Shown piece after piece: positions 30,188-37,458 of a stretch of 64,000 nucleotides of DNA; the stretch's first letter is position 1; the number at the start of each line of letters is the position of its first letter. A program made the position numbers and the translations under genes. Origin of the DNA: Methanolobus psychrophilus R15. Its GTDB lineage: Archaea > Halobacteriota > Methanosarcinia > Methanosarcinales > Methanosarcinaceae. Below the pieces are notes generated by a model. That model saw nothing but the letters and a program-made list of their open reading frames with translations, was not told the origin of the DNA and searched no databases. The stretch spans positions 992,001 to 1,056,000 of the forward strand of contig CP003083.1 in the NCBI GenBank assembly GCA_000306725.1. The letters are read 5' to 3'.

Positions 30188-30508
<321 letters not shown>

Positions 30509-30552: not shown

Positions 30553-30574
30553 GTTACAGAATATATTCTGTAAC
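30553..30574. repeat. Perfect 22-bp dyad between rps10 and nadA
   Basis: The arm GTTACAGAATA is followed at once by its reverse complement, giving a symmetrical 22-bp palindrome with no spacer. A T-rich stretch (30582-30601) follows. It could be a second terminator stem or a protein-binding site; its position is about 75 bases before the nadA TATA box. Confidence 0.5.
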
Positions 30575-30649: not shown

Positions 30650-30679
30650 TATATATAATAAAAATTCTCAATTGTGAAT
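30650..30679 (+). promoter_or_regulatory. nadA promoter with CAATTGTG operator
   Basis: TATATATAATA (TATA box, 30650-30660) is followed by ATTCTCAATTGTGAAT at 30664-30679, one mismatch from the perfect palindrome found before tRNA-Cys. It lies between the TATA box and the expected start site, where a bound protein would block transcription. Confidence 0.7.
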
Positions 30680-30737: not shown

Positions 30738-31670
30738 ATGGCTGATATTCAAATAAGGACAAAGGACACTCTATCTATAATCAAGGATATCATTAAGCTC
30801 AAAGAAGAGAAGGACGCGGTGATCCTCGCACACAACTACCAGATCGCAGATGTGCAGGACATTGCTGATTTCATCGGAGACTCGCTGGAGCTCGCAAGAA
30901 AAGCAGCTACCCTTGATAATGAAGTCATTGTTTTCTGCGGCGTTGACTTCATGGCAGAGACCGCAGCCGTCCTCTCACCTGAGAAAACAGTGCTTTTACC
31001 GGCACCCGATGCCAACTGTCCTATGTCAGACATGATCACCGCAGGTGAATTGCGTGTCCTCAAGGAAAGATTCCCTGAAGCCGCTGTTGTCTGCTATGTG
31101 AACACCAGTGCCGAGGTAAAGGCCAAAAGCGACATCTGCTGCACTTCCGCAAATGCCGTGAAGGTCGTAGAGTCACTTAAAGAGAAACAAGTCCTTTTCG
31201 TCCCGGACAGGAACCTTGGACGCTATGTAGCCAGATTCACGGACAAGGAGATACTCCCATGGGAAGGTTTCTGTTTCGTACATGACAGGATAACTTCCGA
31301 TGATGTGATGCGCGCCAGGGATGCGCATCCTGGGGCAGAATTGCTTGTCCACCCTGAGTGCAGGCCGGAAGTCATTGACCTTGCAGACCACGTATTCTCC
31401 ACATCCGGAATGATAAAGCATGTCTGCTCAAGCGACAGCAAGGAGTTCATTATAGGAACCGAGGTAGGGATACTGCACCGGATGGAAAAGGACTGTCCGG
31501 ACAAGTCCTGCTATCCGTTATCTTCCGGTGCCATCTGTATGACTATGAAAAGAACGGATATCCAGAAAGTGCACAGGGCTCTTGAAACTCTTACACCCAG
31601 GGTAACAGTGCCTGAAGATATTGCAGAAAGGGCACGTATGGCTATCCAGAGGATGCTCGCTATCAAATAA
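30738..31670 (+). CDS. nadA: Quinolinate synthase NadA
   Basis: [4Fe-4S] enzyme that condenses iminoaspartate with dihydroxyacetone phosphate to quinolinate, the first ring of NAD. 310 residues. Landmarks: ILAHNYQIADVQDIADFIGDSL, VIVFCGVDFMAETA (cluster Cys), CYVNTSAEVKA, CCTSANAV, LVHPECRPEV (cluster Cys), FIIGTEVGILHRM and GAICMTMKRT (cluster Cys). It is a single-gene unit here: nadB/aspartate dehydrogenase and nadC are not in the window. The preceding promoter carries the shared palindrome. Confidence 0.96.
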   Translation: MADIQIRTKDTLSIIKDIIKLKEEKDAVILAHNYQIADVQDIADFIGDSLELARKAATLDNEVIVFCGVDFMAETAAVLSPEKTVLLPAPDANCPMSDMITAGELRVLKERFPEAAVVCYVNTSAEVKAKSDICCTSANAVKVVESLKEKQVLFVPDRNLGRYVARFTDKEILPWEGFCFVHDRITSDDVMRARDAHPGAELLVHPECRPEVIDLADHVFSTSGMIKHVCSSDSKEFIIGTEVGILHRMEKDCPDKSCYPLSSGAICMTMKRTDIQKVHRALETLTPRVTVPEDIAERARMAIQRMLAIK

Positions 31671-31678
31671 CCCGGTTT

Positions 31679-32416
31679 TTACACATCTGCAGAGCCATGC
31701 CCGCATATTTCACAGTCACAGCGCCTGCTGAACCTTAAAGTGTCCATCTCGGCCAAGAGGCCATTCCATATAAGAAGGCGGTCCGTGAGCAGTTTGCCTG
31801 CTCCCACCAGGTATTTGATAACCTCGTTGGCCTGTATCATGCCGATAATACCAGGGGTCACCCCCACCACCGGAAATACCTCTGTCGGCGGAGCACAGGG
31901 AAAGATACAGCTAAGGCACGCGGACTTCCCAGGAATCACAGTTGTTGCCTGGCCGTCAAAACCTCGTATCGCACCATGGATGAGCGGAATATTTTTCTCA
32001 TGGGCTGTACGGTTGAGCAGGTAGCGTGTCGGATAGTTATCCATGGCATCTACTATCAGGTCTGCATCACCGACAAGTTCAGAAACGTTTATTTGATCTA
32101 TGACCTGACATAAGGCTTCTATCCCGATATGCGGGTTGATAGCAAGCAGTTTCTCTTCAACAGACATGACCTTCTCTTTTCCGATGTCCTGCTCCCAGTG
32201 AAGCACCTGCCTGTTCAGGTTGGAACGCTCTACAAGGTCCTTGTCCACTATTCTGAGATAGCCCACTCCTGCCGCTGCAAGATACAGCGCCACAGGACAT
32301 CCCAGGCCGCCTGCACCTGCTATGAAGACCCGGGCTTTCTTCAGACGCTCCTGGCCGTCCTTACCAAAGAGCATGACCTGCCTTGCATAGCGTTCAAGTT
32401 CAACTTCAGTTAGCAT
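31679..32416 (-). CDS. E1-like adenylyltransferase (ThiF/MoeB/UbaA family)
   Basis: Activates the C-terminal glycine of a ubiquitin-like sulfur carrier by adenylation. 245 residues with the ATP-binding FIAGAGGLGCPVALYLAAAGVG, RSNLNRQVLHWEQDIGKEKV and DAMDNYPTRYLLN. The zinc Cys pairs are CLSC (with CAPP nearby) and CDCEIC. Archaeal homologues act in molybdopterin, thiamine, tRNA thiolation or SAMP conjugation. It lies 69 bases downstream of sepCysS on the same strand without an obvious promoter between, and a ThiS-like carrier gene lies in the same block, which suggests a pair. Confidence 0.9.
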   Translation of the reverse strand: MLTEVELERYARQVMLFGKDGQERLKKARVFIAGAGGLGCPVALYLAAAGVGYLRIVDKDLVERSNLNRQVLHWEQDIGKEKVMSVEEKLLAINPHIGIEALCQVIDQINVSELVGDADLIVDAMDNYPTRYLLNRTAHEKNIPLIHGAIRGFDGQATTVIPGKSACLSCIFPCAPPTEVFPVVGVTPGIIGMIQANEVIKYLVGAGKLLTDRLLIWNGLLAEMDTLRFSRRCDCEICGHGSADV

Positions 32417-32485: not shown

Positions 32486-33847
32486 TTAAACAATTTGAAG
32501 CTCATATTTCCCGGCTATTTCCTGGAACGAGTCCGCAAGATACCTCATCTTTTCCCATGACAGGCCATAGGTATTCAGCTTCCACATGCGTGTCGCGCCT
32601 GCAAATTCTCCTGCGATGCCCCTTTTTGAAAGCTCGTCGGACAGGAAGAAACCTCTCCTCTTATGGCTTTGAGCCACCACATCGAAGCTGCCGGTGGTAT
32701 CTACCTTCGAAAGAGTGTGCTTCCTGGGGTATTCAGACATGACCCGGCTACCCTGAATGGACAGCAGCCTTTCCATGAAGAAGTTAGACTTTTTAACCTC
32801 CTCATCCCAATGCAGTGTTCGCTCTTTGACTACAGGGAAGGAGGCCATCATTCCCATGAGCGTAGATCCCATTAGAGTGCACCCCAGCATTTCCACTTCC
32901 TTTATGCCGAACTTGCGTTTGGTAACATCCCCTGTCATCTGTGTTGTCCTGAACACCACATCAGCCCATTCATCAGTGGTCGCAAGCACACCTGAAGGCG
33001 CGGGAGAAGCCATACTCTTATGACCGGAACCCACTACAAAGTCAGCCCCCATTTTCTTACCATCCACCGGCATGACACCCACTGTATATGCACCGTTGTA
33101 AAGCAGAGGGATATCGTACTGGTGGGCGACCTTCGATATGCTGCGTACATCGTGCTCGTTGGCGAACTGGTAGTCAAAATGGTCTATCATGACGAGCTTT
33201 GGCAATTTTCCGGTTTCGATGATTACGGTTTCTATCTTCTCAGCAACAGCATCCGGAGTTATCTTGTTCCCGGCACTTACCGGAACCTCCTTAACGATAC
33301 CACCTGCCTCTTCCACGGCAAGGAATTCCGTATAGTGGGCAAGTCCGGACACTATCACAGAGTCACCCGACCCTACGAGACTGGATGCTACAGCCTGGAA
33401 ACCCCTCCTGGCACCGGGAACCACGCGAGCGGTGTCCATGTTAAGGAAAGCCGCAAGCTCGGTGTGGAAATCAGCAATCGGGGGTTTTGAGATCTTATCC
33501 AGGCGGAAGGGCTTGCGGCAGTTGTCACAGGCTGAATAGCCGTCCCCGTAGGCTATGAGGGCCTTGCGGGCCTCAGGTGTGAGCCTGCCGGCAGCCTGGA
33601 TGGGCTGTATATTGATGTACTCTTCCTCACGGCTACGAATTTCCATGTTACCGGCTATCCTGGTCACCTCAGGAGAGCCTGTGCCAGCTTCCAGATCATT
33701 GATAATTGCCTTCACTCTGCTCATTTGCTCATGAAATCTGTCCCCTTCGTGCAAACCTATGCCATCAGGCACGGAGTCACGAAGCGTTTCGCGGACATCT
33801 TCCAGGGCAAAGAGTGCCTCGAATGTTTTCTGAACTCTTATATCCAA
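32486..33847 (-). CDS. pscS: O-phosphoseryl-tRNA(Cys):Cys-tRNA synthase SepCysS with N-terminal extension
   Basis: PLP enzyme that converts Sep-tRNA(Cys) to Cys-tRNA(Cys) with a sulfur donor, the second step of tRNA-dependent cysteine synthesis in methanogens. 453 residues from TTG, preceded by AGAGGT. Residues 1-70 are an extension absent from the shorter enzymes; a similar segment in class II methanogens is proposed to help assemble the SepRS complex. The core has EEEYINIQPIQAAGRLTPEA, the essential-Cys motif SACDNC (Cys107, Cys110), GARRGFQAVASSL and the PLP Lys in GSGHKSMASP (Lys277). SepRS is not in the window. The promoter has two shared operators. Confidence 0.93.
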   Translation of the reverse strand: MDIRVQKTFEALFALEDVRETLRDSVPDGIGLHEGDRFHEQMSRVKAIINDLEAGTGSPEVTRIAGNMEIRSREEEYINIQPIQAAGRLTPEARKALIAYGDGYSACDNCRKPFRLDKISKPPIADFHTELAAFLNMDTARVVPGARRGFQAVASSLVGSGDSVIVSGLAHYTEFLAVEEAGGIVKEVPVSAGNKITPDAVAEKIETVIIETGKLPKLVMIDHFDYQFANEHDVRSISKVAHQYDIPLLYNGAYTVGVMPVDGKKMGADFVVGSGHKSMASPAPSGVLATTDEWADVVFRTTQMTGDVTKRKFGIKEVEMLGCTLMGSTLMGMMASFPVVKERTLHWDEEVKKSNFFMERLLSIQGSRVMSEYPRKHTLSKVDTTGSFDVVAQSHKRRGFFLSDELSKRGIAGEFAGATRMWKLNTYGLSWEKMRYLADSFQEIAGKYELQIV

Positions 33848-33882: not shown

Positions 33883-33898
33883 AATCACAATTGTGAAT
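33883..33898. promoter_or_regulatory. CAATTGTG operator A of sepCysS
   Basis: AATCACAATTGTGAAT, one base from the perfect palindrome. It overlaps the expected transcription start of sepCysS on the minus strand. Its centre is 22 bp from that of the neighbouring copy, two turns of the helix. Confidence 0.75.
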
Positions 33899-33904
33899 TA
33901 AGTA

Positions 33905-33928
33905 TTTAACAATTGTGAATATATAAAG
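33905..33928 (-). promoter_or_regulatory. sepCysS promoter with CAATTGTG operator B
   Basis: On the minus strand CTTTATAT (33921-33928) is the TATA box. The palindrome copy TTTAACAATTGTGAAT (33905-33920) abuts it, with the right half-site perfect and two mismatches in the left half. Confidence 0.7.
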
Positions 33929-33990: not shown

Positions 33991-34006
33991 ATCCACAATT
34001 GTGAAA
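33991..34006. promoter_or_regulatory. CAATTGTG operator before the HTH regulator
   Basis: ATCCACAATTGTGAAA, one mismatch in each half. A weak TATA-like AATACTTTAAG at about 33968-33978 would place the start of the rightward transcript within this site, 50 bases before the regulator ATG, consistent with autoregulation. Confidence 0.65.
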
Positions 34007-34056: not shown

Positions 34057-34377
34057 ATGAAATTACCCTGCGAAAAGGTTGTATGGGATGTTCTGCCTGC
34101 CATCAGGGCAGCAATTGCCGAAGAGCTTGCAAACTGCGGCCTTACGCAACAGGAGATAGCCAGGGAACTGGACATGGCGCCTTCTGCGGTCTCACAATAC
34201 CTTTCCAAGAAAAGAGGCTATCGAATAGTTTTCGAAGATGATGTAAAGGAGTCCATAAGCCAGCTGGCCCTGGATATCAAAGAAAAGCGTGTTACAGATA
34301 TTGTGCCCAGGGTGTGCCGCATATGCACGCAGTTACGAACTGAGGGAGACAGGTGCGGTGGTCACGATACCGGTTAA
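34057..34377 (+). CDS. HTH regulator with C-terminal Cys motif (COG2522-like)
   Basis: 106 residues. A XRE-type helix-turn-helix occupies about residues 29-52 (LTQQEIARELDMAPSAVSQYLS). The C-terminal 20 residues carry VCRICTQLRTEGDRCGGHD, with Cys87, Cys90 and Cys100 plus His103, able to hold a metal or Fe-S cluster or to sense thiol state. Cys5 and Cys27 are also present. The gene is divergent from sepCysS, starts a run with a cysteine desulfurase and fdhD, and has its own palindrome in front. GGAGA lies about nine bases before the ATG. I infer that it binds the CAATTGTG operators; this is not shown by the sequence alone. Confidence 0.85.
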   Translation: MKLPCEKVVWDVLPAIRAAIAEELANCGLTQQEIARELDMAPSAVSQYLSKKRGYRIVFEDDVKESISQLALDIKEKRVTDIVPRVCRICTQLRTEGDRCGGHDTG

Positions 34378-34431
34378 GCCTTACTTTCAAAGGCATTTGG
34401 GCCGGCATCACATCAATAGAGGGTGGTCGAT

Positions 34432-35613
34432 TTGAGAAACACTGAGCTCAGAAAGGATTTTCCACTCCTTAACGATGTCATCTATTTCGATAATGCAGCT
34501 ACCAGCCTCATACCTGAACCTGTCATCAATATAATGAATGAGTTTGAGAGGATGTACAGGGCAAATGTGGGGAGGGGAGTGCACAGGCTGACCAGCGTCG
34601 CCTCGCAGAAATACTTTAATGCGCACCAGAAGGTAGCTCGTTTCATAGGAGCTGATGCAGGCACTACCGTGCTTACAAAAAACACCACTGAAGCTATCAA
34701 TATGATAGCATGTGGCCTTAAATGGAGCAAAGGCGACAGTGTCGTGACAACTGCCATAGAGCATCATTCCAATTTTCTTCCATGGATGCGCCTCCGTCAA
34801 AAAGGAGTCGGGATGGAAGTGCTTATGCCACAATCCGACGGCACGTTCGACCTTTCGGACTTTGAGCTTGCAATTAATGACAATACGCGCCTTGTAGCCG
34901 TTTCCCATGCATCCAATGTACTTGGCACTATCCTGCCGGTGAAGGAAATTGCTACCATATGTGAAGAACATGACACCAGATTACTCGTCGACGGCGCTCA
35001 GTCAGCACCGCACCTGCCGGTTAACGTCATGGACATGGGCTGCGATTATTTCTGCTTTTCAGGAAACAAGATGCTCGGTCCCACAGGTACAGGGATACTC
35101 TGGATGAAGGATAACGACATCAGCCCTCTTCTTGTAGGAGGTGGGATGATAGAAAGCGTCTCAATTGAGGACTATAAACTTGCAGAAGGCTACCAGCGCC
35201 ATGAAGCTGGAACACCGCACATAGCAGGGATGATAGGCCTCGGAGGTGCTGCGGAATATCTGGAGAAGGCAGGCATGAATGACATAAAAAAACATGAGGA
35301 GCAACTTACCTGCAAGCTCCTCACGGGGCTTGCTTCAATGGAACATGTACACATCTACGGACCTGAAAATGATAAGGAAAGAATAGGCGTCGTCTCTTTT
35401 AATATAGAAGGCATGCATCCCCATGAAGTATCTCACATACTTGACGAAGCCTCTTCGATCATGACCCGATCAGGAGAACACTGCTGTCAGCCGCTGATGA
35501 AGTATCTGGGGCTTCCCGGCGGGACCGTCCGGGTGAGTCTATACCTGTACAATACCGGAGAAGAAATCGACCTGTTACTGGATACCCTTGAGGAGCTTAC
35601 ACGGAGGTTGTAA
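34432..35613 (+). CDS. Cysteine desulfurase, SufS/CsdA type
   Basis: PLP enzyme that takes sulfur from cysteine as an enzyme persulfide for Fe-S clusters and thio-cofactors. 393 residues. Landmarks: YFDNAATSLIPEPV, RANVGRGVHRLT (SufS-type), EHHSNFLPW, VDGAQSAPHLPVNV, the PLP Lys213 in FSGNKMLGPTGTGILW and the catalytic Cys351 in RSGEHCCQPLM. The start is TTG at 34432 with GAGGGTGG about six bases before; a GTG nine bases upstream is also in frame but overlaps that signal. No SufE/IscU gene is adjacent. It follows the HTH regulator after 54 bases and is probably co-transcribed. Confidence 0.92.
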   Translation: MRNTELRKDFPLLNDVIYFDNAATSLIPEPVINIMNEFERMYRANVGRGVHRLTSVASQKYFNAHQKVARFIGADAGTTVLTKNTTEAINMIACGLKWSKGDSVVTTAIEHHSNFLPWMRLRQKGVGMEVLMPQSDGTFDLSDFELAINDNTRLVAVSHASNVLGTILPVKEIATICEEHDTRLLVDGAQSAPHLPVNVMDMGCDYFCFSGNKMLGPTGTGILWMKDNDISPLLVGGGMIESVSIEDYKLAEGYQRHEAGTPHIAGMIGLGGAAEYLEKAGMNDIKKHEEQLTCKLLTGLASMEHVHIYGPENDKERIGVVSFNIEGMHPHEVSHILDEASSIMTRSGEHCCQPLMKYLGLPGGTVRVSLYLYNTGEEIDLLLDTLEELTRRL

Positions 35614-35614
35614 C

Positions 35615-36442
35615 ATCTTTAAAGAAATTCCCTGCATTAAAGGAGAAGGAGAGTCATTCTCGCAGGAGATGCACCCAGTCATTGAAGAGATGCCTCTTGC
35701 AGTAAACGTTAATGGACGACATGCCCTTACAGCTATGACAAGCCCGGTGATGCTAAGGGAATTTGTGACGGGCTTCCTTTACACCGAACGTATTATCAAA
35801 GGCATTGAAGAGATAGAATCCATCAGAATAGAAGGCAACACCGCCGATGTCCTTACCAGGAACCCGTTCAAGATACTCATGTCACACAAAACCGTCCTTA
35901 GCGGATGCGGCGGCAGTATGTCGTTCCTGGATATAGAGAAGCTTCCTCAGATAAACTCCAAACTCTCCATTAGTTCGCAGGACATCGGAGCTGCTGTCAA
36001 GGAGGCACTTGATTCAAAACTGCATGTCATGACAGGAGGTATTCATGTCGTGGCGCTCTATGGACCTGGCGGAAAGATACAGGTCATTGAGGACATCGGC
36101 AGGCATAATGCACTGGACAGGGCTATCGGATACGCACTTGAGCAAGGCATTGACCTTTCAGGCACCTATGTGATATGTTCCGGACGCATATCTTCTGAGA
36201 TGGTCAGGAAATGCCTGGTAGCAAATATACCCATCATAGTATCAAGAGGAGCCACGACTACGCTTGCTACCGATATTGCAAAAGCGCGCGGACTGACCGT
36301 GGTAGGGTTTGTCAGGGGAAAGAAGATGAACATCTACTCAGGCGGGGAGAGAATATCCGATATCCCGGCCAATGATGCTGCATACCTGGCAGAGGTGACG
36401 GATGAAGGGACAGAAGAGAACACGGAAGATCAAAAAGTGTAA
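35615..36442 (+). CDS. fdhD: FdhD-type sulfurtransferase, start uncertain (ATC?)
   Basis: Moves sulfur from a cysteine desulfurase to the molybdenum/tungsten cofactor of formate dehydrogenase. Typical motifs: PLAVNVNGRHALTAMTSPVMLREFVTGFLYTE-like N-terminal part, TGGIHVVALYGPGGKIQVIEDIGRHNALDRAIGYAL, and CSGRISSEMVRKCLVANIPIIVSRGATT. The bacterial Cys-X-X-Cys site appears as SGCGGS, only the first Cys kept. CGGAGG at 35602-35607 lies seven bases before an ATC at 35615; alternatives are TTG at 35588 (overlapping the desulfurase) or ATG at 35669. No formate dehydrogenase gene is in the window. Placement directly after the desulfurase fits the sulfur-transfer role. Confidence 0.85.
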   Translation: MFKEIPCIKGEGESFSQEMHPVIEEMPLAVNVNGRHALTAMTSPVMLREFVTGFLYTERIIKGIEEIESIRIEGNTADVLTRNPFKILMSHKTVLSGCGGSMSFLDIEKLPQINSKLSISSQDIGAAVKEALDSKLHVMTGGIHVVALYGPGGKIQVIEDIGRHNALDRAIGYALEQGIDLSGTYVICSGRISSEMVRKCLVANIPIIVSRGATTTLATDIAKARGLTVVGFVRGKKMNIYSGGERISDIPANDAAYLAEVTDEGTEENTEDQKV

Positions 36443-36447
36443 TGAGG

Positions 36448-36642
36448 TCATCCTCCAAAGACCACATGAATTATCCTGATCTCTGCACCATTTTCAAGAA
36501 TCCTGTCCTCCGGTATAACCTCGCTGTTCATCACAACAAGCACCTCACTCTGGCTGATACCCAACTGCCGGAGCAATCCTTCCACCGAAATTGGACCTGT
36601 GCTTATATCCTCTGTTTTTCCTGAAGGAAGTTTGATCTTCAT
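36448..36642 (-). CDS. ThiS/MoaD-like ubiquitin-fold sulfur carrier
   Basis: 64 residues ending in HVVFGG, the C-terminal diglycine that E1-like enzymes adenylate and convert to a thiocarboxylate. The beta-grasp pattern is visible (MKIKLPSGK, then SVEGLLRQLGISQSEVLVVMNSE and AEIRIIHVV). It may serve thiamine, molybdopterin, tRNA thiolation or protein modification (SAMP). It lies 55 bases after tRNA-Cys on the same strand with no clear promoter between, so it is probably driven by the operator-bearing tRNA-Cys promoter. A matching E1-like gene is in the sepCysS unit. Confidence 0.88.
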   Translation of the reverse strand: MKIKLPSGKTEDISTGPISVEGLLRQLGISQSEVLVVMNSEVIPEDRILENGAEIRIIHVVFGG

Positions 36643-36697: not shown

Positions 36698-36769
36698 AGC
36701 CAGGACCCGGATTCGAACCGGGATGGAATCGCTCTGCAGGCGATTGCGTAGCCGCTCCGCCATCCTGGC
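36698..36769 (-). tRNA. tRNA-Cys (anticodon GCA)
   Basis: Read on the minus strand, the acceptor GCCAGGA pairs with TCCTGGC. The anticodon stem ATCGC/GCGAT has loop CTGCAGA with GCA, and the T arm is CCCGG TTCGAAT CCGGG. The discriminator is U, the identity base for Cys. CCA is not encoded. Its promoter has a perfect CAATTGTG palindrome starting two bases upstream of the tRNA. Confidence 0.97.
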
Positions 36770-36770
36770 A

Positions 36771-36811
36771 TATTCACAATTGTGAATATAGGAATGCCAT
36801 TTATTATAAAG
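36771..36811 (-). promoter_or_regulatory. tRNA-Cys promoter with a perfect 18-bp operator
   Basis: TATTCACAATTGTGAATA at 36771-36788 is a perfect palindrome. On the minus strand it lies between the TATA box CTTTATAATAA (36801-36811) and the tRNA 5' end (36769), covering the expected start site near 36780. This is the best copy of the shared motif. Confidence 0.8.
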
Positions 36812-36892
36812 ATTGCGTTCTTGTGAAGATGACGACAGCAGATTTATTATCAATGAGGTGCATCCATGACACGCCCGGCAGATTTTCAACAC

Positions 36893-36964
36893 GGACCTGT
36901 AGTGTAGCGGATATCACTTAAGCCTCCGGAGCTTAGAACCCGGGTTCGAGTCCCGGCAGGTCCG
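36893..36964 (+). tRNA. tRNA-Arg (anticodon CCG)
   Basis: Acceptor GGACCTG/CAGGTCC, anticodon stem TAAGC/GCTTA with loop CTCCGGA (CCG at the anticodon), T stem CCGGG/CCCGG, discriminator G, CCA not encoded. It is divergent from tRNA-Cys; TTTATTAT near 36843-36850 is a likely TATA box, and no CAATTGTG palindrome lies in its own promoter. Confidence 0.96.
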
Positions 36965-37458
36965 TAAAAGAAAAGGCATAGAATTCTGCAGAAAATGCCC
37001 TCTTCATCCAGATTCATAAAAATATGACGGGAAAATAGAATATAGGAGGTAGTACGAGGCATCCTCCGCCACCACGCTTCTGGACGCCTTACATTTCCTT
37101 TCTGTAATGTTCCCCAACACCACAGTCGGTGATTTCTGTTGATAACCCAAGCGCATACTCCCAGCGCCCACAATAAAAGATTAGTCTTTATATTACTTAA
37201 CATAAACCTGATTAAATTTAATGAGTAACAGTGTTTTTCAAATGCCTTTCAAATTATATGGAGTTTATAACGTAATATTATTTTATTTATTATGACATAA
37301 TAAGTAGATAATTTTGAATATTATCATTAGCAGGCCTAATTACTCAATAATACTACTGAACTTTCTTTCAGCACAAAAAGGACACAAGGTAACTTATTGG
37401 CAGGCAGCTTTCGGAATAGTTTATATTCATACAAAACAAATAGGTAAGAGGGGTTGTA
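36965..37458. other. Intergenic gap of 494 bases
   Basis: No convincing gene. The first 240 bases are of average composition without an open frame I trust. The rest is very AT-rich. TTTATATTC at 37420-37428 and GTAAGAGGGG just before 37459 are the probable TATA box and Shine-Dalgarno of the next gene. Confidence 0.5.

Follow-up and report, generated by a model that had tools for sequence, protein, structure and literature searches.

We have analysed a window of 64,000 nucleotides from Methanolobus psychrophilus R15, i.e., the whole stretch from 992001 to 1056000 of the single-contig 3,072,769-bp genome. The gene cluster studied here, with its operator copies and the promoter of a stand-alone tRNA-Cys gene, is listed in Table 1. 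The genes of SepCysS2 and of the 106-aa helix-turn-helix (HTH) protein, referred to below as the regulator, are divergent, with three operator sites between them. The thiS-like gene lies 55 bp downstream of the tRNA-Cys on the same strand, and the two are likely to make up one transcription unit, cotranscription being inferred. Besides SepCysS2, which is a second paralog, the genome has a core SepCysS (2047477–2048577) and also encodes SepRS (1434504–1436117) and CysRS (1979151–1980575). In an alignment to 3wkr, the three catalytic cysteines and the PLP lysine of SepCysS are conserved in SepCysS2, which is also longer at its N terminus, with ~70 residues beyond the aligned SepCysS core.

Table 1 Genes, promoter elements and operator copies of the cluster, in window positions.
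Feature	Position	Strand	Basis or remark
Operator copy before nadA	30664–30679	none	1/16 mismatches
nadA, quinolinate synthase	30738–31670	+	protein family match
ThiF/MoeB-like E1 enzyme	31679–32416	-	protein family match
SepCysS2, second Sep-tRNA:Cys-tRNA synthase, N-terminally extended	32486–33847	-	catalytic Cys and PLP Lys conserved
Operator copy before SepCysS2	33883–33898	none	1/16 mismatches
Operator copy in SepCysS2/regulator intergenic region	33905–33920	none	2/16 mismatches
Operator copy before regulator gene	33991–34006	none	2/16 mismatches
106-aa HTH protein with conserved cysteines (regulator)	34057–34377	+	proposed operator binder, no binding data
SufS-like cysteine desulfurase, downstream of regulator	34423–35613	+	protein family match
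FdhD-like sulfurtransferase, further downstream, same direction	35588–36442	+	protein family match
ThiS/SAMP2-like sulfur carrier, C-terminal GG	36448–36642	-	protein family match; cotranscription with tRNA-Cys inferred
tRNA-Cys(GCA), stand-alone copy	36698–36769	-	ARAGORN
Operator, 20-bp perfect palindrome ATATTCACAATTGTGAATAT	36770–36789	none	directly adjoins tRNA-Cys 5' end (36769)
Predicted transcription start zone (palindrome centre)	36779–36783	-	inferred from TATA position and published spacing
TATA box TTTATAATA of tRNA-Cys promoter	36802–36810	-	read by eye from sequence

On the minus strand, the TATA box TTTATAATA is followed by the palindrome ATATTCACAATTGTGAATAT and then by the tRNA. 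Start mapping in M. psychrophilus R15, which gave 49 start sites for 40 tRNA genes, has placed the BRE/TATA ~19–22 nt from the start (PMC5378194), and therefore the start of the window tRNA-Cys is predicted to fall in the middle of the palindrome. That is, the start suggested by the TATA box should coincide with the operator centre; this is an inference from TATA position and published spacing, and there are no start-site data. The neighbouring tRNA-Arg(CCG), predicted by ARAGORN at 36892–36965(+), is without an operator site. The earlier note, made on the window, had described an 18-bp perfect palindrome between the TATA box and the tRNA-Cys 5' end, starting two bases upstream of the tRNA, and no such site at the tRNA-Arg. 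We have confirmed the operator at the tRNA-Cys start as real, together with its perfect symmetry, its placement and the lack of a site at the tRNA-Arg. The length has to be corrected to 20 bp, and the two-base distance did not hold.

Palindrome length by itself is weak evidence: in 4 of 40 random Markov sequences of 64 kb, the longest perfect palindrome likewise has 20 bp. The evidence for the operator rests on position and recurrence instead. A search of the window for the 16-mer operator core ATTCACAATTGTGAAT, allowing no more than 3 mismatches, gave five matches where 0.53 would be expected, and 0 of 100 shuffles gave as many; four of the matches are given as operator copies in Table 1, and the fifth lies before the tRNA-Cys at 36772. 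When the whole genome (3.07 Mb) is searched with at most 2/16 mismatches, the only matches are the same five sites, which span 6.1 kb. The probability of five random sites lying so close is ~8e-11, as calculated post hoc. Matches with exactly 3 mismatches are mostly background genome-wide (reversed-pattern control, 16 vs 25). A widespread motif can be ruled out, the strong sites being confined to one cluster of this genome. A separate 22-bp perfect palindrome (GTTACAGAATATATTCTGTAAC, 30553–30574), located between a gene ending at 30508 and the nadA operator, is unrelated to the operator motif.

The genome has four tRNA-Cys genes. Three are identical copies linked to rRNA genes, and no operator is found at these three; in the loci checked, L002 and L004, they are located between 23S and 5S. 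The window copy shares 92% identity with the three and shows paired changes in both its acceptor stem and its T stem. Operator control of all tRNA-Cys is thus ruled out. As the three rRNA-operon copies would mask any change, a readout of tRNA-Cys levels must be isoacceptor-specific.

Throughout Methanosarcinaceae and Methanomicrobiales, the same operator recurs at a similar position ahead of tRNA-Cys genes that stand alone. In the loci fetched by the regulator from named genomes of two orders, including Methanomicrobiales, 22 of 27 tRNA-Cys genes have a site with no more than 2/14 mismatches, and none of the 13 other tRNAs there has a site under 5 mismatches (of 14). After pooling and de-duplication, a site is seen at 48 of 87 tRNA-Cys genes not linked to 5S, vs 0/28 rRNA-linked tRNA-Cys and 0/28 other tRNAs. 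The value 48/87 should not be read as an unbiased frequency: many loci were fetched for regulator or operator, and the 87 include apparent housekeeping copies of Methanosarcina. In Methanolobus, the best sites of the rRNA-linked tRNA-Cys have 4–6/14 mismatches, and most stand-alone tRNA-Cys have sites of 0–2/14; a few of the latter (one each in L103, L111 and L118) show a weaker site or none. Some stand-alone tRNA-Cys near SepCysS2 also have no nearby site.

These data bear on the explanation that the palindrome is due to chance, or is an RNA-level signal such as a leader hairpin or a processing site, without any DNA-binding regulator. In its favour, ~10% of random 64-kb sequences of the same composition contain a 20-bp perfect palindrome somewhere, so length cannot exclude chance. 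Recurrence does: many genomes have the operator in a comparable place, and it also stands before protein genes. In addition, its strong sites keep to a single genome cluster, and with a mid-palindrome start the RNA would hold only half of the palindrome. We regard this explanation as very unlikely.

In three Methanosarcina-type genomes the tRNA-Cys genes form arrays, with three genes each in L211 (genome G132) and L213 (G117), and five within ~4.1 kb in L224 (G101), where four have an exact operator 8–9 nt upstream. Over the three arrays, an operator is present at most of the tRNA-Cys genes. The array partners are SepCysS2, a Cys/Met-metabolism PLP enzyme, a radical SAM protein, ThiI and methanogenesis marker 16, together with a protein of weak FemAB-like similarity. 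FemAB-type enzymes use aminoacyl-tRNA, and the arrays might possibly represent a tRNA-dependent cysteine-transfer system. The site centre in the Methanosarcina arrays is ~38 bp from the TATA centre, between start and tRNA, a position that is compatible with a roadblock. Several relatives have a second site overlapping or following the TATA region, and a few genomes have sites further upstream. It should be mentioned that automatic TATA calling fails for some promoters, including that of the window.

An alternative is that the regulator binds the operator as an activator of the tRNA-Cys and its partners. The few genomes with sites ~43–67 nt from the tRNA support it, and the sign cannot be proved by position alone. 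However, in the window and most relatives the site coincides with the expected start, follows it or adjoins the TATA box, i.e., positions at which binding is normally repressing, and activation thus seems unlikely.

We have further compared the presence of SepCysS2 and operator-tRNA-Cys, compiled by hand, in 25 Methanolobus genomes. Both are present in 7 and neither in 16, with 2 discordant genomes (Fisher p=1.3e-4, not tree-corrected). G118 has operator-tRNA-Cys without SepCysS2, and G037 the reverse; strict co-inheritance is rejected by these exceptions. On the SepRS tree, sister contrasts are G000/G129 vs G125, G107 vs G113, and G075 vs G033 (89% support for the last pair). SepCysS2 of G125 is reduced to pieces. 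In six loci from Methanolobus genomes without SepCysS2 (L057, L058, L059, L060, L064 and L070), decayed tRNA-Cys relics are found between operators and thiS, with only the T arm and the acceptor end remaining. As the operator is kept before thiS after tRNA decay, it also serves thiS in Methanolobus, where the tRNA-Cys is not the sole target. Separately, G120, a Methanolobus genome 99% complete, shows no CysRS match over the cut-off and no regulator ortholog, and may possibly rely wholly on the SepRS/SepCysS route.

The relics raise the objection that the real target is the downstream thiS-like gene, the tRNA-Cys being a passenger whose regulation has no function. The short distance on the same strand is in line with it, as is the operator retained before thiS in Methanolobus relatives after tRNA loss or decay. 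On the other hand, the Methanosarcina arrays have a separate operator for each of several tRNA-Cys genes, and the operator-tRNA-Cys unit of other genera and of Methanomicrobiales precedes SepCysS2 instead. This explanation is therefore unlikely.

As to the protein that recognizes the operator, we have counted sites (at most 1/14 mismatches) in 38 genomes of the family. Genomes with a regulator ortholog have a median of 4 sites, and those with no detected ortholog a median of 0 (Mann-Whitney p=5e-6), vs an average of 0.5–0.6 for a reversed-motif control in both groups. The groups were set by hand, and the p value ignores relatedness. A distant paralog of the regulator (~40% identity) exists in the genome of the window and in related genomes, and genomes with only such paralog-level matches have almost no sites. 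The exception is G057, which has four sites and no detected ortholog. Both the paralog and G057 leave room for the possibility that another protein, e.g., the paralog, binds the operator. Yet paralog-only genomes mostly lack sites while ortholog-bearing ones have them, and the promoter of the ortholog itself carries a site, which makes a different binder very unlikely.

The regulator matches HTH_3 (PF01381) only weakly, with 24.4 bits (cut-off 23) and an E value of 3e-5 over residues 21–53, and the match is weaker still in more distant orthologs. Its Pfam matches are of helix-turn-helix-type families only, not ribbon-helix-helix. The AlphaFold model is helical (mean pLDDT 73), and a PDB fold search with it gave no match at E ≤ 0.001. 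There is a weak sequence-profile match to a lambda repressor-like chain; overall, solved-structure and fold searches indicate a generic HTH resemblance only. The closest named orthologs are from Methanolobus. C5, C87 and C90 show no substitution in either of two ortholog alignments (28 and 43 sequences), and in the alignment of 28 the same is nearly true of C100. The conserved cysteines suggest a metal, Fe-S or redox sensor, a role that is inferred from them and remains no more than possible.

Based on the above analyses, the regulator, a Cys-rich HTH protein and probably a repressor, is likely to control one tRNA-Cys along with the tRNA-dependent route of cysteine synthesis. The sequences show the operator and the regulon-like way in which it is distributed, the conservation at tRNA-Cys, the coupling to the regulator gene and the partial co-distribution with SepCysS2, with the reservation that the association statistics ignore relatedness and several loci were fetched for regulator or operator. 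Binding by the 106-aa protein is inferred; it would bind the palindrome probably as a dimer, covering the start between TATA box and tRNA and so blocking transcription of tRNA-Cys and the thiS-like gene. Repression rather than activation, and the signal, are also inferred, because of the site position and the co-regulated genes. In this model, repression would last while the supply of cysteine, sulfur or Fe-S is sufficient. When the supply drops, the Cys-bearing regulator, perhaps as an Fe-S, metal or redox sensor, would release the operator, and tRNA-Cys, SepCysS2, the sulfur carrier, the cysteine desulfurase and NadA would rise jointly. The window tRNA-Cys would be a component of tRNA-dependent cysteine synthesis by SepRS and SepCysS2, and the rRNA-operon copies would serve general translation; preferential use of the window tRNA by the Sep pathway is again an inference.

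The earlier note had proposed repressor control of the tRNA through the regulator's operator, specific to Cys. The Cys-specific operator at the tRNA-Cys promoter is strongly supported by the comparison across two methanogen orders, but the control concerns one of four tRNA-Cys genes, not the whole supply. Repression is consistent with the site position and remains inferred, as no binding or expression data were available.

A bolder reading is that methanogens of the two orders keep a dedicated, inducible tRNA-Cys isoacceptor, multiplied in the Methanosarcina arrays, which acts mainly as the carrier for cysteine synthesis by SepRS and SepCysS2 and is switched by a regulator sensing cysteine, sulfur or Fe-S. 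The regulation of such a tRNA would resemble that of a metabolic cofactor more than that of a part of translation. We would not favour this reading at present, although it is not far from an open question. If the inferred control of this tRNA-Cys is true, a tRNA is handled as a pathway component, and the reason for which two SepCysS enzymes are kept beside CysRS and several tRNA-Cys genes in many methanogens can be tested. The observations also point to a regulator of sulfur/cysteine metabolism and its operator in both Methanosarcinales and Methanomicrobiales, and genome sequences allow the regulon to be read.

Part of the gene neighbourhood had been described before. Mukai et al. 2017 (PMC5424206) have found SepCysS genes of clade VII in the vicinity of tRNA-Cys and sulfur genes, and the second-type SepCysS of the window likewise lies near tRNA-Cys and sulfur-metabolism genes, though its comparison with clade VII is not based on a tree. 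A stand-alone tRNA-Thr-ED gene, often present in clade VII loci, is absent from the window cluster, the genome copy being at 1420602–1421009. A further criterion of clade VII is an N-terminal extension with homology to the N-terminal domain of SepCysE; for SepCysS2, the ~70 residues outside the core show no more than that an extension is present. In G107, a stand-alone tRNA-Thr editing-domain gene is situated inside the SepCysS2/tRNA-Cys cluster (C6:286747–287154, in L076). The text of that paper contains neither 'regulat' nor 'transcription'; the operator, the regulon and the inferred control of a tRNA promoter are new here. In the open-access literature searched, we have found no report of this operator, of the regulon or of the tRNA control, nor of a regulator for SepCysS or for the sulfur/cysteine metabolism of methanogens that acts through such a site, and a subscription-journal report could be missed.

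IscR-type Fe-S regulators of bacteria offer a functional analogy. By this analogy, the window also has a small Cys-bearing HTH regulator whose gene neighbours that of a cysteine desulfurase and carries a site in its promoter. Unlike IscR, it has no Rrf2 family match in Pfam, and IscR is not known to have a tRNA target. There are few precedents for a single tRNA species with transcription control of its own, and we have found none in archaea, in agreement with the earlier remark that tRNA genes are rarely known to have gene-specific transcription factors. The nearest case, TrcR of Anabaena (PMC10272220), concerns a mixed tRNA operon: this ribbon-helix-helix repressor, linked to translational stress, controls the 26 tRNA genes of the trn operon and its own gene through conserved sites. 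The system proposed here is similar to TrcR in having conserved sites both at tRNA genes and at the regulator's own gene, and differs from it in that the regulator is archaeal and of an unrelated HTH type, and that its tRNA target is tRNA-Cys only, tied to cysteine synthesis.
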